DNA of 51,538 nt from NCBI GenBank assembly GCA_949288455.1, contig CASEKF010000053.1, positions 1 to 51,538 on the forward strand. The letters run 5' to 3'. Positions within the stretch are counted from its first letter, which is position 1, and every line of letters begins with the position of its first letter. The stretch comes from an uncultured bacterium (GTDB lineage: Bacteria; Vulcanimicrobiota; CADAWZ01). The position numbers and the translations under genes are program-made. Under the pieces are notes generated by a model. It searched no databases and was not told the DNA's origin. It was given only the letters and a program-made list of their open reading frames with translations. This document shows, piece after piece, positions 5,903 to 27,395 of this stretch.

Positions 5903-6577
5903 TTATCTTCTGCCGCCTAAAACATGACACCAAGCTCTAAAAATATTGTCTCTACTCTCAGCTTGAGTTTGCATCGAAGTTTGAATAATCTCTTGAATAG
6001 CAGTCTGAGTATCCATAATAATAGCCATCATCGCGGCGAAATGTTTCTGACGAGCCGCCATCATTTGCATCCAAATATTCTGCAGCTCTTCATGCTTCTG
6101 CTGAATTTCTTGAAGTTTTTTCAATTCTTCCGCAGGATCCATAGCCGGAGGAGGCTGAACAGAAGCGGAGCCGGAAGCTTGAGCAGAAGAGGAAGAGGAT
6201 GACGACGAAGAAGAAGAGCCAATTGACGCTCCGGGCATTCCCTGGTCAAAATCCGGTTCCTGAGTTCCCGACTCTGCCGATTCTCCGGCGTTCGGGCAAG
6301 TTTCCGCTTGCTGAGATTCTTTAGCTCCGTCCGCGGAAGAGGCTTCTTTCTTTTCTTTTGAGTCAGAGGCGGGAGCGGATTGACCGTCTGTCTTTTTAGC
6401 CTCTTCCGTTTTGCCGTCAAAAGAAATCTGCACGTTATCAGTCTGTTGAGATACGGAAGAATCCTCTGATGCCGTTTTTGAAACGGCGTCTTTCTGTAAA
6501 CCGACATGCTGGGCGTTTCTTACGAAATCTGAATGAGAAACTGAATTTATAGAATTCATATTAGGATTAATATTCAT
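5903..6577 (-). CDS. Ser-rich, signal-less protein of unknown function
   Basis: A 224-residue protein. I chose the ATG at 6577 because a CGGAGG ribosome binding site lies upstream of it, inside the longer frame. There is no signal peptide. Residues 1-130 are disordered, rich in Ser, Glu, Lys and Asp, with a run of 13 serines (about 131-143). Residues about 155-224 form a Gln/Met-rich helical segment (EELKKLQEIQQKHEELQN onward) with coiled-coil character. It stands alone with its own terminator. The N-terminal style (polar, Ser-rich, VQISFDGKTEE) resembles that of the lysozyme-domain protein at 26124-27395. Possible roles include a secreted effector or surface protein exported without a Sec signal, or a scaffold; there is no direct evidence for any. 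Confidence 0.6.
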   Translation of the reverse strand: MNINPNMNSINSVSHSDFVRNAQHVGLQKDAVSKTASEDSSVSQQTDNVQISFDGKTEEAKKTDGQSAPASDSKEKKEASSADGAKESQQAETCPNAGESAESGTQEPDFDQGMPGASIGSSSSSSSSSSSAQASGSASVQPPPAMDPAEELKKLQEIQQKHEELQNIWMQMMAARQKHFAAMMAIIMDTQTAIQEIIQTSMQTQAESRDNIFRAWCHVLGGRR

Positions 6578-6705
6578 AACAATAGAAAACCTCCGCATTG
6601 TTCTCAAAACAATTCATAGCTTAAGTATTTTCATAATAAATTATATATCTTGAAATAAAAAAAGTAAATCAATCTATTGTGAACATTTTGTTACAATAAA
6701 TAAAA

Positions 6706-7857
6706 TTATGCCAAGGACTTGATGAAATCGGCCATTTTTTTCGCTCCTCCCGGAGCTCCGAGACGTTCCTTCCCTATCGAAGCCATACGACTATATTTTT
6801 CTTTATTTCCTAAGATAGAGCTAACTTCTTCAAATATCGCCTCAGGATCTCTTTTCACCACGGATACGGCGTCTCCAAGCAATCCTTTTTGCCGTTTTCT
6901 GTACCAACCCATTTTATCGTCGGAAAAAGAATCGAATGCGACTACCGGTTTTCCAAGACCGGCTGCCTGCTCGTTAGCAGTGCCGGCCTGGCCTATTACA
7001 ATATCGCATCGGCGAAGCAAATCAGGCATGCCCTTATTATAAAAGTCTATCGAAACGCCTTCCTTCGACATACTCCCGATCTTTTCTCCGGTTCCGCTGG
7101 AAAAAGTCCAACCCAGTTCAACAGCTCCGGAGGCCAGAAGAGACGAATCCAAAGACGGAGGAATTACGGCGGCAAATTTTCCTTGAAATTTTAAAGCGGT
7201 AAGAAAAACAGATTCGGCAATAACGGGCATATCTAAAAACGCAGTTTTTCTGCTGCCCGGCAATACGGCGATCAATAATTCGTCCTTTCCCGCGTCAAAA
7301 TCAAGACCTGTCTCGTCAAGACAATCCATCATAGCGTTTCCGACGTAGGAAGCGTTAGAAACTCCGTCTTTACGCAAATGTTCGGCGGTAAGAGCGTCTC
7401 TTACGAAAACTTTTTCAAAAGCTCGGCGCATAATGATTTTTTCAAAAACGTTATGACATGAAACATAATCGGAACGCGCCGTGCTAATCATCACCCTGGG
7501 CCTTTTAGAAAAACAAGCCGCTAAAATAGCGGGATAAATATCTCCGACGGTAACTATTACGGAAATTCCGGACGAATAATTCCTTATAATATTAATCTGA
7601 GACATCGTAAGAGAAATAAGACCGCTTTGAAAATCCTTCGCTAAATTTCCAAAATTGCCGGGAATGACCCCTCCGGAAGGCATAGCCTTCCGGGTTCCAA
7701 GTATGGAACACTTCACGGTTTCATACATATCTCCGGATCCTACGAGCGGCAAAGCGTATACGGACAGAGAAGGATCAATGTCCAAAAGCGCTTTTATGAT
7801 GCTTAAAGCTATGGAATCTTCGCCTAAGCCGTTGCTTACAAATAAAATATTTTTCAT
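6706..7857 (-). CDS. Lipid-A-disaccharide-synthase-related glycosyltransferase
   Basis: A 383-residue GT-B type protein resembling the family annotated as lipid-A-disaccharide-synthase-related (TIGR03492-like) known from cyanobacteria and Deinococcus. The N-terminus ILFVSNGLGEDSIA and the donor-site segment GQAGTANEQAAGLGKPVVAF (about 287-306) match the LpxB/MurG-like fold. It is clearly distinct from the true LpxB in this window. Its ATG overlaps the upstream metallophosphoesterase gene by 4 bases, so the two are translationally coupled. No signal peptide is present, so it should act at the cytoplasmic membrane face. Substrate unknown; a lipid-linked sugar transfer is plausible from the context. 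Confidence 0.75.
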   Translation of the reverse strand: MKNILFVSNGLGEDSIALSIIKALLDIDPSLSVYALPLVGSGDMYETVKCSILGTRKAMPSGGVIPGNFGNLAKDFQSGLISLTMSQINIIRNYSSGISVIVTVGDIYPAILAACFSKRPRVMISTARSDYVSCHNVFEKIIMRRAFEKVFVRDALTAEHLRKDGVSNASYVGNAMMDCLDETGLDFDAGKDELLIAVLPGSRKTAFLDMPVIAESVFLTALKFQGKFAAVIPPSLDSSLLASGAVELGWTFSSGTGEKIGSMSKEGVSIDFYNKGMPDLLRRCDIVIGQAGTANEQAAGLGKPVVAFDSFSDDKMGWYRKRQKGLLGDAVSVVKRDPEAIFEEVSSILGNKEKYSRMASIGKERLGAPGGAKKMADFIKSLA

Positions 7858-8558
7858 ACTCTCTCCGGGAAAATATGTCTGTAATCCACGATACCGCCGT
7901 CTGAATCCACCGAAATTCTAGCGTAAGAAGTTCCGTAGCATCCGGTATGACAAATAGGTATCCCGTTAGACTCAAACGGCTCTTCAAATTTAAGATGAGA
8001 ATGGCCTGCAAGAATAATATCCAAAAAGCCGCAAGAACGAGTCAACTCAATATCTTCATTAAAGCCGCAATGAGACAGCAAAACGGTCAAATCGACTTCA
8101 GGCATTCTGTTCTTCGCCGCCAGCAAAGCTTCGACATAAGAAGCAAAAGAACATCCGGTAATCTTTGAAAGCAAAGATCCCGACTTGAATTGAACGGGAG
8201 ACAAGCCTATAACGGCTATTTTGCAGCCCAATCTGTCCAAAATCAGAAAAGGACTCAGATTTATATCCGAATCTGAAAATTGAACATTGGCAGAAAGGAT
8301 AGGAAATCCTGCGCAAGCCAATCTATTTTTAATCATAAAAGGGAAATACGAAAATTCCCTGTTTCCCATAGCCATAGCCGAATAACCGGCTTTCTTCATA
8401 TCTGAAAGAACAGGTTCGACCCTATTTAACGAAAAGGGACTGCCTGAAACGGCGTCGCCGCTATCAAGCAGAATTACCGAATCTGACGGAGCAGGAAGTT
8501 GGCGTATAATATCTCTTCTGCCATGAAGATCCGTCGTATGGATAAAATCAAAAATCAT
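7854..8558 (-). CDS. UshA-like cytoplasmic metallophosphoesterase, candidate LpxH replacement
   Basis: A 234-residue calcineurin-like phosphoesterase. Visible metal-site motifs are TTDLHG (Asp10, His12), DSGD (Asp35), GNREF (Asn66, Arg67), SHCG (His163) and AGHSH (His186, His188). The fold resembles the N-terminal catalytic domain of 5'-nucleotidase/UDP-sugar hydrolases such as UshA, but there is no signal peptide and no C-terminal 5'-nucleotidase domain. The GNH(D/E) motif of the superfamily is GNR here; Arg at that place is also typical of LpxH (GNRD). It overlaps both neighbours by 4 bases, inside the lipid A locus. I infer hydrolysis of a UDP-sugar, perhaps UDP-2,3-diacylglucosamine. A general nucleotidase remains possible. 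Confidence 0.75.
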   Translation of the reverse strand: MIFDFIHTTDLHGRRDIIRQLPAPSDSVILLDSGDAVSGSPFSLNRVEPVLSDMKKAGYSAMAMGNREFSYFPFMIKNRLACAGFPILSANVQFSDSDINLSPFLILDRLGCKIAVIGLSPVQFKSGSLLSKITGCSFASYVEALLAAKNRMPEVDLTVLLSHCGFNEDIELTRSCGFLDIILAGHSHLKFEEPFESNGIPICHTGCYGTSYARISVDSDGGIVDYRHIFPERV

Positions 8559-8944
8559 ATCCGGCTTTTAAACGAATAAGGCAGATATCCGGTTAAAGCT
8601 CCGGCTCCAAGCCCCCAAAAACCTGCGTTAAGAGCTTTAGCCATATCGAAAAATCCATAATTTGCGACAAAAGCTAATAAGAAACCTAAAAAAGCGAAAG
8701 ACGAAATAATAATCGCCTGCGATCTTTTAGCTTCTTCTTCAGCTTTGCTCCGAGCCTGTTCTTGCTTTTCAGAGTTATCCTTATTAGGCGAAGAAGATAC
8801 GGTCACGGCAGTTTCCGAATCGTTAGACGGCTTTAGCTCTTCCGACGAGACTCGTTTAGCCGTATTTTTTTCTAAAGAAGCCGCAACGCGCTTCAAATCG
8901 TCTTTTAACCGTTGATTTTTTCTTGTTTTTTTAGTCTTTGACAT
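8555..8944 (-). CDS. Small membrane protein with charged N-terminal tail
   Basis: A 129-residue protein of unknown function. Residues 1-75 are highly charged and probably disordered (KTKKTRKNQRLKDDLKR, then an Asn/Ser/Glu-rich stretch). Two hydrophobic segments follow (about 77-95 and 103-122), the second Gly/Ala-rich (GFWGLGAGALTGYLPY). It heads the sub-operon that contains the metallophosphoesterase and the LpxB-related gene, overlapping the former by 4 bases, and starts 91 bp after lpxB. Translational coupling suggests it may help to hold these enzymes at the membrane. I do not recognise a family. Confidence 0.6.
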   Translation of the reverse strand: MSKTKKTRKNQRLKDDLKRVAASLEKNTAKRVSSEELKPSNDSETAVTVSSSPNKDNSEKQEQARSKAEEEAKRSQAIIISSFAFLGFLLAFVANYGFFDMAKALNAGFWGLGAGALTGYLPYSFKSRI

Positions 8945-9035: not shown

Positions 9036-10172
9036 TTATATCTCGCCCAATAAAACGGAGTTCACAAACGACGCTATTTTTGCCATGCTTCCGGGTTCGC
9101 CCAGAGTTTTTCTTACTTCAAGCAAATAAGATAAAATTTCGGATCTCTTTGAAGAATCGTCTAAAATACTTAATACTTCCTTTAAAAGCCTCTCCGGAGT
9201 AACTTGAGTCTGCAGGAGCTCGCAAACGGCTCTTTTCTGAAGAATAAGATTAGGAAGCGCAAAATATGGGACTTTCACGAAAAGCTTGCCTATAATCCAA
9301 TCGGGCCATGCCAATTTATAGACTACGACCATAGGAACCCCAATAACGGAAGCCTCAAGCGTAGCAGTGCCGGAAGCCACTACCGCGGCCGAAGAATGCT
9401 TCAAGGCGCCGTAACCTCCTCCGTCTAATATCTTGTAAGGAATATCGCAGACAGATTTAAGATCCTTTTCTATAAGAAGGCGTATATCCTTAGAAGCCGC
9501 CGGAATCAGGAAAAACACGTCTTTTTTAACGAAAAAAATCTTACGCATCGCTTTTATAAACACTTTCATAAGAGATTTAATCTCCTGAAATCTGCTTCCG
9601 GGAAGAAAAGCTACGAAAATCTTATCTTCAGGCAAATCGATCGGGCCTTGTTCTTTCATTTTAGCCGCCACTACGTCGACGATCGGATGTCCGAAACAAT
9701 AGTAAGGAACTCCTGAAGATTCATACGTTTTAACGTTATAATCAAAAACGGGAATTATATAATCCGCTACCGAAGCTACTTTTCTTACTCTCTCTACGCT
9801 GGGATACCATGCCGAAGGAGGGAAAAAATACAAAGTTTTAAATCCATGAGCTTTAGCAAACTTGCCCATACGCATATTTAAAGCCGGAGAATCGATCATT
9901 AAAACAAGATCGGGTCTATAATCCAACAGATATTTTTTTATATCCGAGAAAATTTTCAGCATATAAGGGATTTTAGATATTGCGTTCCACGGACCTACGA
10001 CTCCAAGAGAAGTAGTATCGTAAAGTATGTCGGCTCCGGTCTCTTTTAAAAGCCTGCCTCCAATACCTGAAACTACAAAATTATCATTAAGCTTTTTCAA
10101 TTCTTTAATAAGAAAGGCCCCCTGAAGATCTCCTGAGGCCTCCCCTGCCAATATCAAAATTCTTTTTTGCAT
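9036..10172 (-). CDS. lpxB: Lipid-A-disaccharide synthase LpxB
   Basis: A 378-residue GT19 glycosyltransferase that joins UDP-2,3-diacylglucosamine to 2,3-diacylglucosamine-1-phosphate, giving the lipid A disaccharide. The N-terminal ILILAGEASGDLQGAFL motif, VDSP-like MIDSPALNMRMGK, FFPPSAWYPS, FLPGSRFQEIKSL and ASGTATLEASVIGVPMVVVY are all diagnostic, and the length is normal. It lies 6 bp after lpxA. Its substrate would come from the UDP-diacylglucosamine hydrolysis step, for which no classical enzyme is found here. A weak stem (GGGCGA with TCGCCC) spans the region just after the stop near 9010-9050. Confidence 0.95.
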   Translation of the reverse strand: MQKRILILAGEASGDLQGAFLIKELKKLNDNFVVSGIGGRLLKETGADILYDTTSLGVVGPWNAISKIPYMLKIFSDIKKYLLDYRPDLVLMIDSPALNMRMGKFAKAHGFKTLYFFPPSAWYPSVERVRKVASVADYIIPVFDYNVKTYESSGVPYYCFGHPIVDVVAAKMKEQGPIDLPEDKIFVAFLPGSRFQEIKSLMKVFIKAMRKIFFVKKDVFFLIPAASKDIRLLIEKDLKSVCDIPYKILDGGGYGALKHSSAAVVASGTATLEASVIGVPMVVVYKLAWPDWIIGKLFVKVPYFALPNLILQKRAVCELLQTQVTPERLLKEVLSILDDSSKRSEILSYLLEVRKTLGEPGSMAKIASFVNSVLLGEI

Positions 10173-10178
10173 AAAGCT

Positions 10179-10994
10179 TTATAGAACCGAATCTTTATCC
10201 GAATCCTTTCTTACCTTGTCTCTCCTAAAACATATGCCTCTCTTGGAATCGGCTTTAACGAACTCAATAAGATGAGCCATTTCAGGGCTGTCGTTTTTCA
10301 TAGACTCAATCTCAAGAATAGCCTGAGCGCGATTTTTTGAACATAATACGCCGTAGGCTTTCTTCAAGGCCGTTCTAGTCGCCAAATCTATGCCATGCCT
10401 CCTCAAGCCTACTACGTTTAAGCCGTAAAATCTTTCCGGGGATCCGGCTACGGTGCTGTACGGCGGAATATCCTTCGTTATTCTGGAGCACCCTCCGACC
10501 ATGGCGAATCTGCCGATTCTTACAAATTGATGAACGCCGGTCATACCGCCTATAACCGCGTTGTCTTCTATATAAACATGTCCGGCAAAAGAAGATACGT
10601 TGGACACTATTATATTCGAGCCTAAGACGCAATTATGACCGACATGAACATATGCCATCAGAAAATTATTATCGCCTATAACAGTTGCGTTGCCGGCTCC
10701 GGTAGCGCAGTGCAAAGTAACAAATTCCCTAATTATGTTATTTTTTCCTATTTTTAAATAAGTCGTTTCGGCAGACTTAAACTTAAGATCCTGAGGAGGC
10801 ATGCCAATAACGGCTCCCTGAAAAATTCTACAGCCCGGCCCGATTTCAGTATGTCCGGTTATCCTGACGTTAGCGTCTATTACGCAGCCTGAACCAATTT
10901 GAACGTCCGGACCAATTACGGAAAAAGGCCCTATTTCTACGTCTTCGGCTATCTTAGCCGAAGGATCTATTATACTTGATGGGTGAATAGACAT
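10179..10994 (-). CDS. lpxA: UDP-N-acetylglucosamine (or GlcNAc3N) acyltransferase LpxA
   Basis: A 271-residue left-handed beta-helix acyltransferase, first step of lipid A synthesis, cytoplasmic. Hexapeptide repeats run from about 5 to 180. The catalytic His is His120 (HVGHNC), matching His125 of the E. coli enzyme. The acyl-chain ruler position, Gly173 in E. coli, is Gly168 here (MVGGC), which by known structure-function work favours a long 3-hydroxyacyl chain rather than the short chain taken by Met-bearing enzymes. The C-terminal helical domain (GLNVVGLRRHG onward) is complete. It follows the Gfo/Idh gene by 102 bp, which raises the question of whether the acceptor is UDP-GlcNAc or its 3-amino analogue. 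Confidence 0.95.
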   Translation of the reverse strand: MSIHPSSIIDPSAKIAEDVEIGPFSVIGPDVQIGSGCVIDANVRITGHTEIGPGCRIFQGAVIGMPPQDLKFKSAETTYLKIGKNNIIREFVTLHCATGAGNATVIGDNNFLMAYVHVGHNCVLGSNIIVSNVSSFAGHVYIEDNAVIGGMTGVHQFVRIGRFAMVGGCSRITKDIPPYSTVAGSPERFYGLNVVGLRRHGIDLATRTALKKAYGVLCSKNRAQAILEIESMKNDSPEMAHLIEFVKADSKRGICFRRDKVRKDSDKDSVL

Positions 10995-11096: not shown

Positions 11097-12077
11097 TTAA
11101 TTTGATTCGTCGGACAGGAAAAAAAGAGCGGGATCCGAACAGCTTGGCATTTTGACCATCTTCATATTATCAACTGCCTTTATGGCAAGCTGCAAAGCAT
11201 TTTTACCGTCTTCTCCTGTAACCATAGGAATTTTATGACCTATAATACATTCTCTAAAATGCTCTAATTCAAGTCTCAAAGGCTCGCTTTTACGAATAGG
11301 AATAAATTCCGGAGGATTCGTATGTCCCTCTTTTGGAAGTCTGACTATTGAAAGAGTCTGATTAATAAAATCAAGATTAAAAGTTCTTTGAGGCTCTATA
11401 ACTTTCAAATGTCTGTATCGTTCGCCGCTTATTCTGCTTGCGAAAAGACTTGCGATAGAGCCGTTCTCAAAAAGAATCTGCACATGCGCCACGTCTTCTT
11501 TTTCCGAATAAAGAGAGACGCCGTAAGCTTGAACGTCGACTACCGGAGTTTTGACAAAACTGAGCAAAATATCAAAATCATGAATCATCAAATCCCAAAT
11601 TACGCCTACGTCCAAATTTCTCATACTAGGATATCCAATTCTGTGAGACTGTATATACACGGGTTCAGAAACCATTTTTTTAAATTGGCTTACCGCTGGA
11701 TTAAATCTCTCCAAATGGCCGACCTGAAGGACGAGATCATTCGCCTTGGCAAGATCGACTATTTCTTTAGCCTCGTAAAGCATATTGGAAATAGGCTTTT
11801 CAACCAATACATGAACTCCATGACTTAAAAAATCCATGGCCATTCGATGGTGCAAACTAGTCGGTACGGCCAAATTAACCGCCGTAACTTTGCCGAATAA
11901 ATCTCTATAATCCTTAAAATAATCGGTATGAAATTTTTTGGCGTAATACCTGCCGTTCTCTTCGTCAAGATCAGCTATTCCAACCAATTTAACGTTAGGC
12001 ATTTCGGAATATACTCGAGCATGATTCTTGCCCATACTGCCTACGCCGATCACAGCGACACATATTGGCGCATCCAT
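11097..12077 (-). CDS. Gfo/Idh/MocA oxidoreductase of the lpx locus (GnnA-like)
   Basis: A 326-residue NAD(P)-dependent sugar dehydrogenase. The Rossmann motif GVGSMGKNH (11-19), EKPIS (about 93-97) and the segment VGHLERFNPAV followed by WDLMIHDFDILL place it in the branch commonly found next to lpxA and lpxB. GnnA of this family oxidises C3 of UDP-GlcNAc so that the aminotransferase GnnB can make UDP-GlcNAc3N for LpxA. No GnnB-type aminotransferase is in the window, so either gnnB is elsewhere or this enzyme has another task. It stands between the 398-bp gap after fabZ and lpxA. Family confident, substrate inferred. Confidence 0.82.
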   Translation of the reverse strand: MDAPICVAVIGVGSMGKNHARVYSEMPNVKLVGIADLDEENGRYYAKKFHTDYFKDYRDLFGKVTAVNLAVPTSLHHRMAMDFLSHGVHVLVEKPISNMLYEAKEIVDLAKANDLVLQVGHLERFNPAVSQFKKMVSEPVYIQSHRIGYPSMRNLDVGVIWDLMIHDFDILLSFVKTPVVDVQAYGVSLYSEKEDVAHVQILFENGSIASLFASRISGERYRHLKVIEPQRTFNLDFINQTLSIVRLPKEGHTNPPEFIPIRKSEPLRLELEHFRECIIGHKIPMVTGEDGKNALQLAIKAVDNMKMVKMPSCSDPALFFLSDESN

Positions 12078-12475: not shown

Positions 12476-12898
12476 CTACATTTTCACCATAGAGCACATC
12501 ATTTCCCCTTCCGCTGCCAGAACTCCGTCAACAAACGCGGCAGATTTCATTTTGCCGATATTTCTCTTTACATGCGTAATTTCAACTTCAATTCTTAACT
12601 GATCTCCCGGAACTACGGGACGTTTAAAACGGAACTTATCAAGAGCCGCAAGATAAGGGATACCGCCCTTAAATTCCTCCTGCGCAAGAATTAAACAAGC
12701 TCCGACCTGAGCCATCGCTTCGGTTATAAGAACTCCGGGCATCACCGGACGCCCGGGAAAATGCCCCTGAAAATAAGGCTCGTTAAGAGTTACGTTTTTT
12801 ATTCCAACCGCTTTTAAGCCGTTTATTTCAAGAATCTTATCCACAAGTAAAAAAGGATATCTGTGAGGTATCACTTCCTGAATTTTAAGAATGTCCAT
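12476..12898 (-). CDS. fabZ: 3-hydroxyacyl-ACP dehydratase FabZ
   Basis: A 140-residue hot-dog-fold dehydratase of fatty acid synthesis. The signatures [11 protein letters not shown], the catalytic His in [13 protein letters not shown] and the following Glu in [10 protein letters not shown] are all present; length is normal. It overlaps the end of lpxC by 14 bases, the coupling seen in many bacteria. The pairing makes sense because LpxA/LpxD and FabZ compete for the same 3-hydroxyacyl-ACP pool. Confidence 0.95.
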
Positions 12899-13736
12899 TT
12901 ATTATGCCTCCAATTTTTTCTATCTCTCCGGCCATTTTTACGTTTAGTTTATGACCTGATCTAATAGCTATTATATGCGCAGATAAGATTACGCCGGCAA
13001 GAAACATATCTCCAATCAAATCGAGACATTTATGCCGCGCCGGCTCCATAGAAAATTTTAAAGGCGAAGAATAGCCATTTTCCATTATGACAAGAGCGTT
13101 AGACAAATCGCAACCTTTAGCGAGATTACTTTCCGTTAAAGCTTTAATCTCGTCATAAAAACCAAATGTTCTTGCCGGAGCCACGTCCCTGATAAAATCC
13201 CCCTCGCCAGGCGCAAAAGAAAACGTTTGAGAACCGATAACGGTATTAGGATAATCCAGAACGAAAGTATACCTCAATTCGTCGGAAGGCAAGGCTATCA
13301 CGGCAGATAAGCCTTCATATACGACTTCGGGACGTTCAAGCGTCAACACACGCGCCGGAATTTCTAAGTCTTTAACGCCGGCTTTAATAAAAAATTCGCT
13401 CCAGGCCAAAGCGCTTCCGTCTAAAACAGGAGCTTCTCCCCCGTCGACCCAAACCTGCAAATTTCCAATGCCCAAAGCGGAAGCCGCCGCCAGAAAATGC
13501 TCTACCGTAGACACCGAAAACGATTCGTTGCCAATAAGAGTACGCCTTACGGTATTAAGAACGTTCGAAGCCAAAGCCCGTACAAACGGAGCTCCGGGAT
13601 TACGCTTATCAAAAAAACGAACTCCCTCTCCGGCCTTAGCGGGCTTAACCGTAAATTCTACTTTTCGGCCGGTATGCAAACCGACGCCAGATACGTTAAA
13701 TTCATTTTCTATAGTTCGCTGAGTTTTTAGTTTCAC
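12885..13736 (-). CDS. lpxC: UDP-3-O-acyl-GlcNAc deacetylase LpxC
   Basis: A 283-residue zinc deacetylase, the committed step of lipid A synthesis. The start [19 protein letters not shown], the zinc ligand His in STVEHFLAA, the HKCLDLIGD motif (second His and Asp ligands) and the catalytic His in RSGHKLN are in place. It is slightly shorter than the E. coli protein and lacks the C-terminal degradation tail known there, so control by FtsH through that tail would not apply. It begins 3 bp after the unknown exported protein and overlaps fabZ. Confidence 0.95.
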
Positions 13737-13739
13737 AAA

Positions 13740-15497
13740 TTATCGTCCCCTGCGTAAAGTAAATTTTATAGGATAACAAGAAGAAGCCTCGGGAATAGTC
13801 AAAAGATTAATCTTTTGAACTTCGTTGCCCTTAAGACGAATCGTATCCAAAACATATTCTTCGTCTTTTTGCAAAACAGGAGTCTCAATCAATTTTCCAT
13901 CAAAAACAATCGTACCCTGAGAAGTTCCGTTCAGCGGAGTAAAAGTTACGTCTATAGCTACCGGAGACTGGGCGTCGTTAACCAACTCCGCGTCAATGGA
14001 ATAAATCATCCCAAAATTGCCTGTATTAGGCTCTCCGGTCGCCGCGTCGATAACCCAAGGCCATTTTCCCACTTCTATTTCGAATATTTCGTCAGACGTT
14101 TTGAAAGAATGCTCAATGTCAATAAAAGAAGAAGGGAAAATGCCATGAGGATGAATTTTAAAAGGATCAAAAGGTTCGTTAATATCTTTAAGATCCAAAT
14201 TCGAAGCGAAAGAAGGAAAAGTTTCGACTCTAACCTCAACGCGTTCTCCGTCAATAAGATTAAAATCGCATATGCCGGAGAATAACAAATTTGAATTTAT
14301 GACTACGTCGGAAAGCAAAGCTTCGGAAAAAGGAGGAATCCGCAAAAGATATCCGCCTTTCGCCATAAAAAGAGAAATATATCGAACGGCCGCCGTATGC
14401 CCGGTATAAATTTCATATTTGCCCGGCCCGGCAGAAGCGTTTCTAAAAAGCAAATCAGCGGGTTTATCCGATAAATTTTTACAAATAATTCTTAATTTTC
14501 TGCCGTAATCGGAAATATTTTTATGAGAATACATGAACCTTGCCGCGTCTTCTTTATCCAGAGAAGCGCGAAAAAGAACGCCGTCGCAATCAACCAGCTC
14601 AGGGCGGTTGCTAACCCATAGCTCTCCTTCGTCCGGCCATTTAAGCGAAGAATTTACGACCGATACGATTACGACCCCTTCGACGGTTATATAATTCGAA
14701 CCTTCAAGAATGATCTTTACGGGAATCTTCATCTTATCGCCTTCAAAAAGAGAAGAATTTATCTGAAGTTCCTCGGCTAAATAAAGAGACGCTCCGGGTC
14801 TAAGCGTCACTGCGTCTGACAGCCTGTAGAGCAATCCGGACTTAATAACTTCAGGCGACGCCGGAGTCCCCGTAACGACAAGATCTATGTTAGAATTTAT
14901 TTCCCCCGCTCTATATTTGGAAACAATCAATACCGACGCTTTCTGACGCTTTCTTTTTATAACTACTTTAGAATTAACAGGCCTCAAAGGCGTAAAAATA
15001 AGAATATCGTCTTCTGTTGAAATTTCCAGATTTGAAGCGTCATAGTCCAGCTCTATGGGGCCTTCTCCGCCTACGGTTATAAAATCGCTGTCTCCCATGG
15101 CTATGGTAAGTTTGTTCAAAGAAACCGGAAGAGGCTTAATCTTTCCCGCTTCTTTTATGTTTTTCAACCATAAACCGGCCAAAGCCTCAGGTTCGGAATT
15201 ATGTTTCCGGGCCTGTTCTCTAGTAACTTCGACTATCATGTCGCTTCCCCAAAAAATAGCGTATCCAAAGTCCGTCTCTTTTATATTTAAATCGTTGACC
15301 GAGGCTTGCGCTTCAATTTGTTTTTCAATGATTTGCGAAGCTTCTTTCGCGAGTAGTTTAGCCGACGCGCCGTCCTGGTCAAACAAGCGCATAACTACGA
15401 TTTCATTAACTACTACAGGACAGCTCTCCTCGGCAAAAGCCGCGCAAATCACAAAAAAAGGAAGCATGGCCGCTAATAAATTCTTCAAACGCTTCAT
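13740..15497 (-). CDS. Large exported protein of unknown function inside the lpx operon
   Basis: A 585-residue protein with a Sec signal peptide (about 1-22, ending near AAFA). Residues about 27-125 form an alpha/beta-looking domain (VNEIVVMRLFDQDGASAK to LAGLWLKNIKEAG), and the rest is rich in beta strands, with an Ig-like or secretin-N-like segment at about 135-205. No membrane helix follows the signal peptide, and no catalytic motif is recognised. It overlaps lpxD by one base and precedes lpxC by 3 bp, so it is locked between two lipid A enzymes. A periplasmic or outer-membrane role linked to envelope assembly is inferred from position only. I do not recognise a named family. Confidence 0.7.
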   Translation of the reverse strand: MKRLKNLLAAMLPFFVICAAFAEESCPVVVNEIVVMRLFDQDGASAKLLAKEASQIIEKQIEAQASVNDLNIKETDFGYAIFWGSDMIVEVTREQARKHNSEPEALAGLWLKNIKEAGKIKPLPVSLNKLTIAMGDSDFITVGGEGPIELDYDASNLEISTEDDILIFTPLRPVNSKVVIKRKRQKASVLIVSKYRAGEINSNIDLVVTGTPASPEVIKSGLLYRLSDAVTLRPGASLYLAEELQINSSLFEGDKMKIPVKIILEGSNYITVEGVVIVSVVNSSLKWPDEGELWVSNRPELVDCDGVLFRASLDKEDAARFMYSHKNISDYGRKLRIICKNLSDKPADLLFRNASAGPGKYEIYTGHTAAVRYISLFMAKGGYLLRIPPFSEALLSDVVINSNLLFSGICDFNLIDGERVEVRVETFPSFASNLDLKDINEPFDPFKIHPHGIFPSSFIDIEHSFKTSDEIFEIEVGKWPWVIDAATGEPNTGNFGMIYSIDAELVNDAQSPVAIDVTFTPLNGTSQGTIVFDGKLIETPVLQKDEEYVLDTIRLKGNEVQKINLLTIPEASSCYPIKFTLRRGR

Positions 15498-16519
15498 TAG
15501 CTATCTCCTATAGAACATGAAGAATAATTAAAAAATTTCTCCGCCTTAGCCATGAATTCCGGAAGACGCGCTACTGCGGCTTCAATTTTCAATTCTTCCC
15601 GATGATCTCTTGCCGGATAACCGGATACCACGGCGCCGGTCTTTACCGGTTTAGTGACTCCGGCCCGTCCTCCCACTATAGCGTCCGCTCCTATAACGGT
15701 ATGATCTCTTATGCCTGCCTGCGCCGCTATTATTACTCTATCTCCTATTCTGGAGCTTCCGGCTATTCCGGATTGGGAAACTATAGTGCAATCTTTGCCT
15801 ACGAAGACGTTATGGCCTATCTGCACAAGATTATCAATTTTCGTGCCGGCTCCGATAGACGTTTCCCCCGTAGTCGCCCTGTCAATCGTGGTATTGGCTC
15901 CTATCTCAACGCAAGAAGCGACGTCGACTATTCCGACTTGAGGAATTTTCACCTGTTCGGCTCCGTTTCTTACAAAGCCAAACCCGTCCGCTCCTATAAC
16001 GGCCCCGGAATGGATCAGACAATTATCAGAAATTCTGCAGCCTTTCATAATCGTAACTCTGGGTTCCAGAATAGAATTTTTACCGATAAAAACTCCTTCT
16101 CCAACATATGAAAAAGGATAAATTTCAACTCCGCTTTCAATTACGGCTCCTTTTTCTATCACAACGTAAGGACCTACGTAAGCTTCGTCCGAAACTACGG
16201 CGTCCTCCGCTACGGAAGATAAAGCATGGATGCCGGGCTTACGTTTTTCAACGACGTTGAACATAGCCAAAACCTGAGCGAAAGCCAATCTGGGATTTTT
16301 AACGCGAATAACCGGAATCGTAAATTCTTTGGAATTTAAGGGGATTATAACGGCTGAAGCCGCGGATTCTTCAACGGCTCTGCGATGTCGGTCATTTTCC
16401 ATAAAAGTCAGATAATTTTCCGACGCTCCCTCGACTCCGGAAATACCGCTGACAAATATATCCTCGCCTTCTAACGCTCCTCCGATAAATTCGGCTATTT
16501 CACTTAATCTCTTCTGCAT
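15497..16519 (-). CDS. lpxD: UDP-3-O-acylglucosamine N-acyltransferase LpxD
   Basis: A 340-residue acyltransferase that adds the second acyl chain during lipid A synthesis. The N-terminal uridine-binding domain (about 1-100) with NPRLAFAQVL is followed by hexapeptide repeats. Catalytic His lies in VQIGHNVFVG; GADGFGF and GANTTIDRA are family signatures. The start at 16519 is preferred to a TTG twelve bases upstream, because a GGAG lies in front of the ATG. It follows the third Skp-like gene by 111 bp. Confidence 0.95.
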   Translation of the reverse strand: MQKRLSEIAEFIGGALEGEDIFVSGISGVEGASENYLTFMENDRHRRAVEESAASAVIIPLNSKEFTIPVIRVKNPRLAFAQVLAMFNVVEKRKPGIHALSSVAEDAVVSDEAYVGPYVVIEKGAVIESGVEIYPFSYVGEGVFIGKNSILEPRVTIMKGCRISDNCLIHSGAVIGADGFGFVRNGAEQVKIPQVGIVDVASCVEIGANTTIDRATTGETSIGAGTKIDNLVQIGHNVFVGKDCTIVSQSGIAGSSRIGDRVIIAAQAGIRDHTVIGADAIVGGRAGVTKPVKTGAVVSGYPARDHREELKIEAAVARLPEFMAKAEKFFNYSSCSIGDS

Positions 16520-16630
16520 TACTAACTCCAAATTATCTCAAAACTTTTCAAATCAAACGTCGTTTTTATAAAAACGCTAATCGCACGGCGCAAATCTGCA
16601 AATGCCAATAAGGAAACAAGATATAAACGA

Positions 16631-26123: not shown

Positions 26124-27395
26124 ATGAGTGAAGTAACTTCAATCGGCAACGGATCTATTAACGCGACTAGTCAAACTGCCTACGTCGCTCCTACTAATAT
26201 TAGCTCATCCTCAACTGCTTCTTCGTCGGACTCGGCGACATCGACAATTCAAACGCAAGACACAACCGAACTGTCTGCCGACTCTCAAGAAACGGAAGAA
26301 CCTAACCCTGTCAATCTGGAAGAGCTTACCGGATCGGAAGAAACCGAGGAGAAACAAGATTCTTCCGTTAAGGAAAAACAGGAAGAACAAATAAGACAAC
26401 AAAAAGAACAACAACTTGAGCAACTGCAGGAAACGATGGAAAAAATGCGACAAGAAGCGGAGAAGCTGCAGCAAAAATTTGAAGAAGCCCGAAATTCAGG
26501 AGATATTGAAGCGGCAAGCGAAGCGGTCGAACAGCTAAGCGGCATCTACGATGAAATGGGAAAACTAATGTCGGATATTTCGAGTTTAAGAGAAGAGCTG
26601 TACGGAGATCAAGCTAATAATTCCTCTTCCGGTCAGGTTCCAAGCGAGAACTCGTCTTCCGCATCATATGACGGCGGCTCTTCCTCCCCGACGTCCGGAG
26701 GAGGCTACTCTCCCGTATCGTCTGACTCAGGATATTCTCCTTCTTATTCGGGAGGATCAGGCGGAGATTACTCTCCCGTATCGTCCGGAGTAGGCTACTC
26801 TCCCTCATCGTCCGGCGCGGGATATACGCCGACATCGTCCGGAAGTTCCTCGGCTCCCGCAGCTGCGGTTAACGCTCCAACCTCGGCAAACTTAAAAGGC
26901 GACACCGCTCAAGAACAAATATTCAATTATTTGAAAGATATGGGTCTGACGGACATAGCCGCGGCCGGAGTTATGGGAAATATGAAATGCGAATCCGGAT
27001 ACAGCGCGACTAACCTTCAAAACTCATATGAATCCAAGTTAGGTTTAAACGACGAACAGTATACTCAGGCAGTTGACAGCGGCTCTTATTCTCGCGACCA
27101 ATTCGTGAATGACAGCGCAGGATACGGGATAGTACAATACACTTACTCAGGATATAAAGCCGGATTATATGATATGGCAAAAGAACAGGGCAAATCAGTC
27201 GGAGATCTTGGAGTTCAATTAGAATATCTTTCGACGCAGATGAAACCCGAACTTATCCAAAAACTTAACTCTGCCAGCACTCCCGCGGAAGCGGCCACAA
27301 TTTTCTGCAACGATTTCGAAAAGCCCGGAACTCCTAATATGGATGCCAGAATAGCCGCAGCTAACGAAGCGTACAGTCAATATGCTCAAAGTTAA
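26124..27395 (+). CDS. Signal-less Ser-rich protein with C-terminal phage tail lysozyme domain
   Basis: A 423-residue protein. Residues 1-80 are Ser/Thr-rich without a Sec signal; 85-160 is a charged coiled coil (QEEQIRQQKEQQLEQLQE onward); 165-250 is a low-complexity linker with GYSPxSSG repeats; about 255-423 is a phage-tail-type lysozyme domain (EQIFNYLKDMGLTDIAAAGV, MGNMKCESGYSATN with the likely catalytic Glu, and DSAGYGIVQYTYSGYKAGLY). The domain cleaves peptidoglycan in phage tail tips. It is the only protein gene on the plus strand, has a strong AGGAGG site, and leads into tRNA-Trp. Cell-wall remodelling, phage-derived lysin or antibacterial effector are all possible. Confidence 0.8.
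   Translation: MSEVTSIGNGSINATSQTAYVAPTNISSSSTASSSDSATSTIQTQDTTELSADSQETEEPNPVNLEELTGSEETEEKQDSSVKEKQEEQIRQQKEQQLEQLQETMEKMRQEAEKLQQKFEEARNSGDIEAASEAVEQLSGIYDEMGKLMSDISSLREELYGDQANNSSSGQVPSENSSSASYDGGSSSPTSGGGYSPVSSDSGYSPSYSGGSGGDYSPVSSGVGYSPSSSGAGYTPTSSGSSSAPAAAVNAPTSANLKGDTAQEQIFNYLKDMGLTDIAAAGVMGNMKCESGYSATNLQNSYESKLGLNDEQYTQAVDSGSYSRDQFVNDSAGYGIVQYTYSGYKAGLYDMAKEQGKSVGDLGVQLEYLSTQMKPELIQKLNSASTPAEAATIFCNDFEKPGTPNMDARIAAANEAYSQYAQS

Follow-up and report, generated by a model that had tools for sequence, protein, structure and literature searches.

Assembly of lipid A by the Raetz pathway requires lipid X as the acceptor for LpxB. Its formation from UDP-2,3-diacylglucosamine is the only early lipid A reaction for which several natural enzymes exist, namely LpxH, LpxI and LpxG. 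LpxH (TIGR01854) is the enzyme of beta- and gammaproteobacteria. LpxI (PF06230), a member of an unrelated family, takes over in bacteria that lack LpxH, and its gene is often part of the lpx cluster, with lpxA and lpxB on either side. LpxG (NF033458), a metallophosphoesterase of Chlamydia, performs the LpxH reaction with a GNHD motif and carries an N-terminal membrane helix (PMC4807358). In P. aeruginosa LpxH, Arg80 holds the beta-phosphate via a bidentate salt bridge, and a helical insertion lies between His114 and His195, the fifth and sixth metal ligands; according to the authors, LpxH alone has arginine in place of this histidine (PMC5016852). All three enzymes are missing from some bacteria that make lipid A. 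Opiyo et al. noted lipid A makers without lpxH and suggested that its function can be replaced without difficulty, perhaps on several occasions (PMC3087551).

We analyzed a window of 51,538 nucleotides (the whole stretch of DNA under study) on contig 53 of a 2.13 Mb, 98.9% complete genome from the Eremiobacterota (WPS-2). On the reverse strand, an open reading frame with an ATG start (7854–8558) encodes a single-domain metallophosphoesterase (MPE) of 234 residues with a GNR-type motif, which we propose to be a UDP-2,3-diacylglucosamine diphosphatase. Its gene sits in an lpx operon and is coupled to its neighbors by ATGA overlaps. Upstream on the same strand are lpxD (15497–16531; PF04613, 56 bits, cut-off 30.8, with hexapeptide repeats), lpxC (12885–13736; TIGR00325, 217.7 bits, cut-off 187.25), fabZ (12476–12898; TIGR01750, 182.6 bits, cut-off 155.15), a gene for a GnnA-like UDP-GlcNAc 3-dehydrogenase (11097–12077; NF040723, 265.8 bits, below the cut-off of 450), lpxA (10179–10994; TIGR01852, 319.3 bits, cut-off 231.05) and lpxB, encoding the lipid A disaccharide synthase (9036–10172; TIGR00215, 219.6 bits, cut-off 190.25). 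LpxA, LpxC, LpxD and LpxB had all been named in the first-pass annotation; the NCBIfam cut-offs bear this out for LpxA, LpxB and LpxC, and Pfam does so for LpxD. The GnnA-like gene, which is found inside the lpx operon in several relatives too, hints at a lipid A based on GlcN3N with amide-linked chains.

The MPE gene is flanked on the reverse strand by a gene for a small putative membrane protein (8555–8944) and by one for an LpxB-related, glycosyltransferase-like protein of the TIGR03492 family (6706–7857; 281.7 bits, cut-off 219.2). The membrane protein matches no Pfam family; by eye, its N-terminal half is charged and its C-terminal half hydrophobic, and similar genes are present in relatives (loci L010, L011, L012 and L024). 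The MPE start codon overlaps the stop codon of the membrane protein gene in an ATGA at 8555–8558, and a second ATGA at 7854–7857 joins the MPE gene to the TIGR03492 gene. The four-base overlaps reported earlier are therefore present at both ends. Between lpxB and the membrane protein gene there is no overlap but a gap of 91 bp.

The Eremiobacterota are diderm. The outer membrane of their cultured member Vulcanimicrobium is covered with LPS, and its 3-hydroxy fatty acids are abundant, with iso-C14:0-3OH and iso-C13:0-3OH among the major fatty acids (PMC9758169). For this reason, a lipid A of this kind is probably made in the phylum, whose genomes had been noted earlier to carry LPS and BamA genes (PMC6664022). 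Our screen of the phylum covered 149 genomes, of which 85 counted as high quality (completeness of 90% or more, contamination of 5% or less), and found LpxC in 142 (83 of the high-quality set).

The first-pass annotation saw no LpxH, LpxI or LpxG in the window, and regarded such a gene elsewhere in the genome as evidence against its proposal. Neither the whole source genome nor the 148 others supplied one. LpxI was absent from the 2.13 Mb genome and from all 149, no genome matched the LpxH model at E ≤ 0.001, and nothing exceeded the cut-off of NF033458, the curated model (as opposed to experimentally verified sequences) by which LpxG was judged. The gap at the LpxH step is thus real and phylum-wide. 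Since LpxB needs lipid X, some enzyme must perform this step in the Eremiobacterota. With the same models, Synechococcus elongatus also has LpxC and neither LpxH nor LpxI, so that other enzymes for the step may exist elsewhere. Searches of the open-access literature turned up neither an LpxH replacement in the Eremiobacterota nor any report on TIGR03492.

One could suppose that the step is carried out by another metallophosphoesterase or by an unrelated hydrolase, leaving the GNR protein with a different role. LpxI proves that unrelated folds can do it, and paralogues resembling YaeI and LpxG occur in 26 of the 149 genomes, including the source genome. These paralogues cannot supply the step generally, because only 12 of the 85 high-quality genomes have them, and no other metallophosphoesterase type was common to the source genome and ten further genomes surveyed, in which some loci stayed unclassified. 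We therefore give this explanation very little credence. The YaeI-like protein of the source genome (L001) was itself rejected as an LpxG, as it scores 99 bits where the cut-off is 350 and is absent from most of the phylum. Proteins of this type are scattered through about a sixth of the phylum (G009, G012, G030, G034 and others), and in the source genome the gene lies outside the lpx operon.

By sequence and fold, the MPE is closest to the UshA/5'-nucleotidase/SoxB branch, whose N-terminal MPE domain it shares. PF00149 is its only Pfam match (23.9 bits, cut-off 21.5). NCBIfam models of the SoxB/UshA/NadN branch match the window protein only with their N-terminal (MPE) domain, and every member of the family, or almost every one, is hit by the models for SoxB and UshA. 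The predicted structure (mean pLDDT 96) finds its best fold matches in the MPE domains of UshA and CD73 (E 1.5e-16 for UshA). In contrast to this branch, the protein has no C-terminal second domain (no match to the C-terminal domain families in its 234 residues) and no signal peptide, and it reads GNRE instead of GNHE. It begins with MIFDFIHTTDLHG, with DxH at residues 10–12 and neither a leader nor a membrane helix, and the earlier description of a cytoplasmic, single-domain protein of UshA/5'-nucleotidase type agrees with these results. The family appears to have come from the UshA/5'-nucleotidase branch by loss of the second domain, and not from LpxH.

The nearest solved structural relatives are nucleotidases, which counts against a role as LpxH. 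Such an ancestry would favor a nucleotidase or UDP-sugar hydrolase acting on small nucleotides, for example UMP or UDP-GlcNAc, and only tuning the precursor pools of the operon. We consider this highly unlikely. The C-terminal domain of 5'-nucleotidases such as UshA and CD73 binds the nucleoside, whereas the MPE lacks both this domain and the catalytic histidine. Moreover, pool tuning hardly explains the constant presence of the gene in the lpx operon, and a cytoplasmic enzyme hydrolyzing UDP-GlcNAc would waste an essential precursor.

The MPE resembles LpxH in belonging to the same superfamily, in its cytoplasmic location, in its length (about 240 residues in LpxH), in the two-metal ligands and in the lipid A context. 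It also shares the motif series DxH, GD, GNR, H and GHxH with arginine in the third block; in the window protein, these blocks are D10xH12, G34D35, G65N66R67E68 (8355–8366, reverse strand), H163 and G185H186xH188. However, it does not match the LpxH family model (TIGR01854, cut-off 190.35 bits), its third block reads GNRE rather than GNRD, and its gene, unlike that of LpxH, sits in the lpx operon. The distance from His163 to His186 is 23 residues, compared with about 80 in LpxH, and the predicted model has a single helix (166–175) between these ligands. The helical insertion domain that holds the acyl chains in LpxH is therefore missing. LpxH chains were not among the PDB matches of the family profile at E ≤ 1, and hhalign of the family against LpxH aligned only the GHxH stretch; the E. 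coli LpxH query used matched deposited LpxH chains nearly identically. At the level of sequence, the two proteins have no detectable relation beyond the MPE superfamily. From LpxG, which, if the proposed role is right, offers a parallel as a non-LpxH metallophosphoesterase put to use for this reaction, the protein differs in giving no match to the LpxG model, in reading GNRE, and in its DxH at residues 10–12, which leaves no room for a membrane helix. The LpxI_C domain is likewise absent.

All seven ligands of the two-metal site are present (Asp10, His12, Asp35, Asn66, His163, His186 and His188) and, together with Arg67 and Glu68, are invariant in 30 orthologues. Also invariant are Gly39-Ser40, Glu48-Pro49, Tyr71, Arg79 and Asn91. 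The replacement of GNH by GNR at Asn66-Arg67, first read from the window alone, thus extends to the whole set, with GNRE in 30 of 30 orthologues chosen by overall similarity. A separate pattern scan returned GNRE in 76 of 76 sequences; this count is circular, as the pattern contained GNRE, and was excluded from the evidence. The four UshA-branch paralogues of the source genome read GNHD or GNHE, and two SoxB sequences have GHWE or SHWE at this position. In the tree, the GNR clade stands apart from the four paralogues with support of 98/99. The exchange of His for Arg, for which the first-pass annotation drew the comparison with LpxH, is documented in that enzyme (PMC5016852). Since LpxG works with histidine (GNHD; PMC4807358), arginine is not required for the reaction and is no proof of the role. 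The change looks convergent in the Eremiobacterota protein and LpxH, because the former family would derive from the UshA/5'-nucleotidase branch.

We consider it probable that the MPE is the UDP-2,3-diacylglucosamine diphosphatase of the Eremiobacterota and performs the LpxH step. The sequences show which residues are present, how well they are conserved and where the gene lies; the substrate and the chemistry are inferred. In the proposed mechanism, the two bound metal ions would activate a hydroxide or water, which would attack the alpha-phosphorus of UDP-2,3-diacylglucosamine, while Arg67 would neutralize the leaving group at its beta-phosphate, a task that falls to Arg80 in LpxH. The products would be UMP and lipid X, and LpxB would couple the latter with a second UDP-2,3-diacylglucosamine. 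The loss of the histidine proton donor fits a phosphoanhydride substrate, because its leaving group needs no proton. As the helical insertion is missing, the acyl chains would have to be held at a different place than they are in LpxH. Any lipid pocket is likely to lie between Asn66 and His163, probably around residues 92–162, in a segment of UshA type that includes a conserved Q-Y/F...W-E...F stretch at 123–138.

The MPE was found in 142 of the 149 genomes and in 84 of the 85 high-quality ones (GNR-protein profile, E ≤ 1e-25). When the single window protein was used as a query against the genome contigs, no match was obtained, and the relatives were found by an alignment-based scan. Most of the named relatives found with the family belong to Candidatus Eremiobacterota (WPS-2) or UBP9, and the closest are two rumen MAGs, RUG13580 and RUG13696, with 46% identity. 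The co-occurrence with lpx genes in genomes lacking LpxH, LpxI and LpxG, suggested earlier as a check, is nearly without exception across the phylum. Three genomes in which LpxC was present but the MPE was missing were inspected and dismissed as real exceptions; the contigs end before the place of the MPE gene, two inside lpxB and one inside lpxC. Of 80 named loci, 50 have the full order lpxC-fabZ-lpxA-lpxB-MPE-TIGR03492, and nearly all the remaining ones have a shortened or somewhat altered version of it; phylum-wide, the arrangement is lpxA-lpxB-(0–3 genes)-MPE-TIGR03492. Because orthologues with a conserved motif and gene order occur throughout the phylum, the observation is far beyond chance.

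In loci with both genes, the median distance from the lpxB stop to the MPE start is −4 bp, and in some lineages 2–4 kb separate them. Direct adjacency to lpxB is limited to part of the phylum. TIGR03492, which matches in all 85 high-quality genomes, is the strictest neighbor in every lineage, and that the strictest link is to this gene and not to lpxB counts against the LpxH role. TIGR03492 proteins, which unlike the MPE are glycosyltransferase-like and not hydrolases, are common to cyanobacteria and Deinococcota. We found them in S. elongatus and in Deinobacterium, and LpxC was not found in the latter, which again speaks against the assignment. The main rival explanation takes up this link. 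The MPE could be a phosphatase that tailors lipid A (for example, at the 1-phosphate of the disaccharide) together with the TIGR03492 protein, lipid X being made by another enzyme. No feature of the locus is as constant as the pairing of the MPE gene with its TIGR03492 neighbor, the MPE gene follows lpxB, and cyanobacteria, which also have TIGR03492, make phosphate-free lipid A (PMC3087551). Nevertheless, we judge this reading unlikely. From MPE chemistry, arginine in place of the general-acid histidine should be unfavorable for a phosphomonoester with its alkoxide leaving group, and the LpxH step would be left without a known enzyme in a whole phylum.

An LpxH equivalent of new and independent origin is thus a well-supported functional prediction from the sequence data. 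It is also likely, though slightly less so than the activity itself, that the family is a fourth, phylum-wide class of UDP-2,3-diacylglucosamine hydrolase, derived from a UshA-type nucleotidase that lost its nucleoside-binding domain and export signal and made its own His-to-Arg change. If so, this fourth solution would close the lipid A pathway for the whole phylum, would offer a clean case of active-site convergence, GNH having become GNR in two distinct branches of the superfamily, and would bear on which bacteria are spared by LpxH-directed antibiotics.

Eight candidate fusions of the MPE to LpxB or TIGR03492 were flagged by a rule that picks up overlapping genes as well; of those examined, L015 is an overlap in different frames and L108 a frame extended upstream, so we make no claim of a fusion. 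Among the best matches listed for plasmid records, which were scanned for homologues from Deinococcota or cyanobacteria, most were UshA and SoxB type proteins, and none was TIGR03492. Between lpxB and the MPE gene, some loci have a small membrane protein, as in the window, and some lineages have an additional LpxB-like glycosyltransferase together with a membrane protein of ICMT/PEMT type (L041, 1669–3974; L043, 1847–3654; L053, 2151–3974; L098, 1753–3982), the two parts being fused in one protein of 607 residues in L053. Their presence suggests further lipid A modification. Finally, Ser/Asn-rich N-termini without a classical signal peptide were seen in proteins encoded in the window at 5903–6607 (reverse strand) and 26124–27395 (forward strand), and in L002, L005 and L006. 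These proteins include three UshA-branch nucleotidases, and such N-termini may be an unusual kind of export signal.
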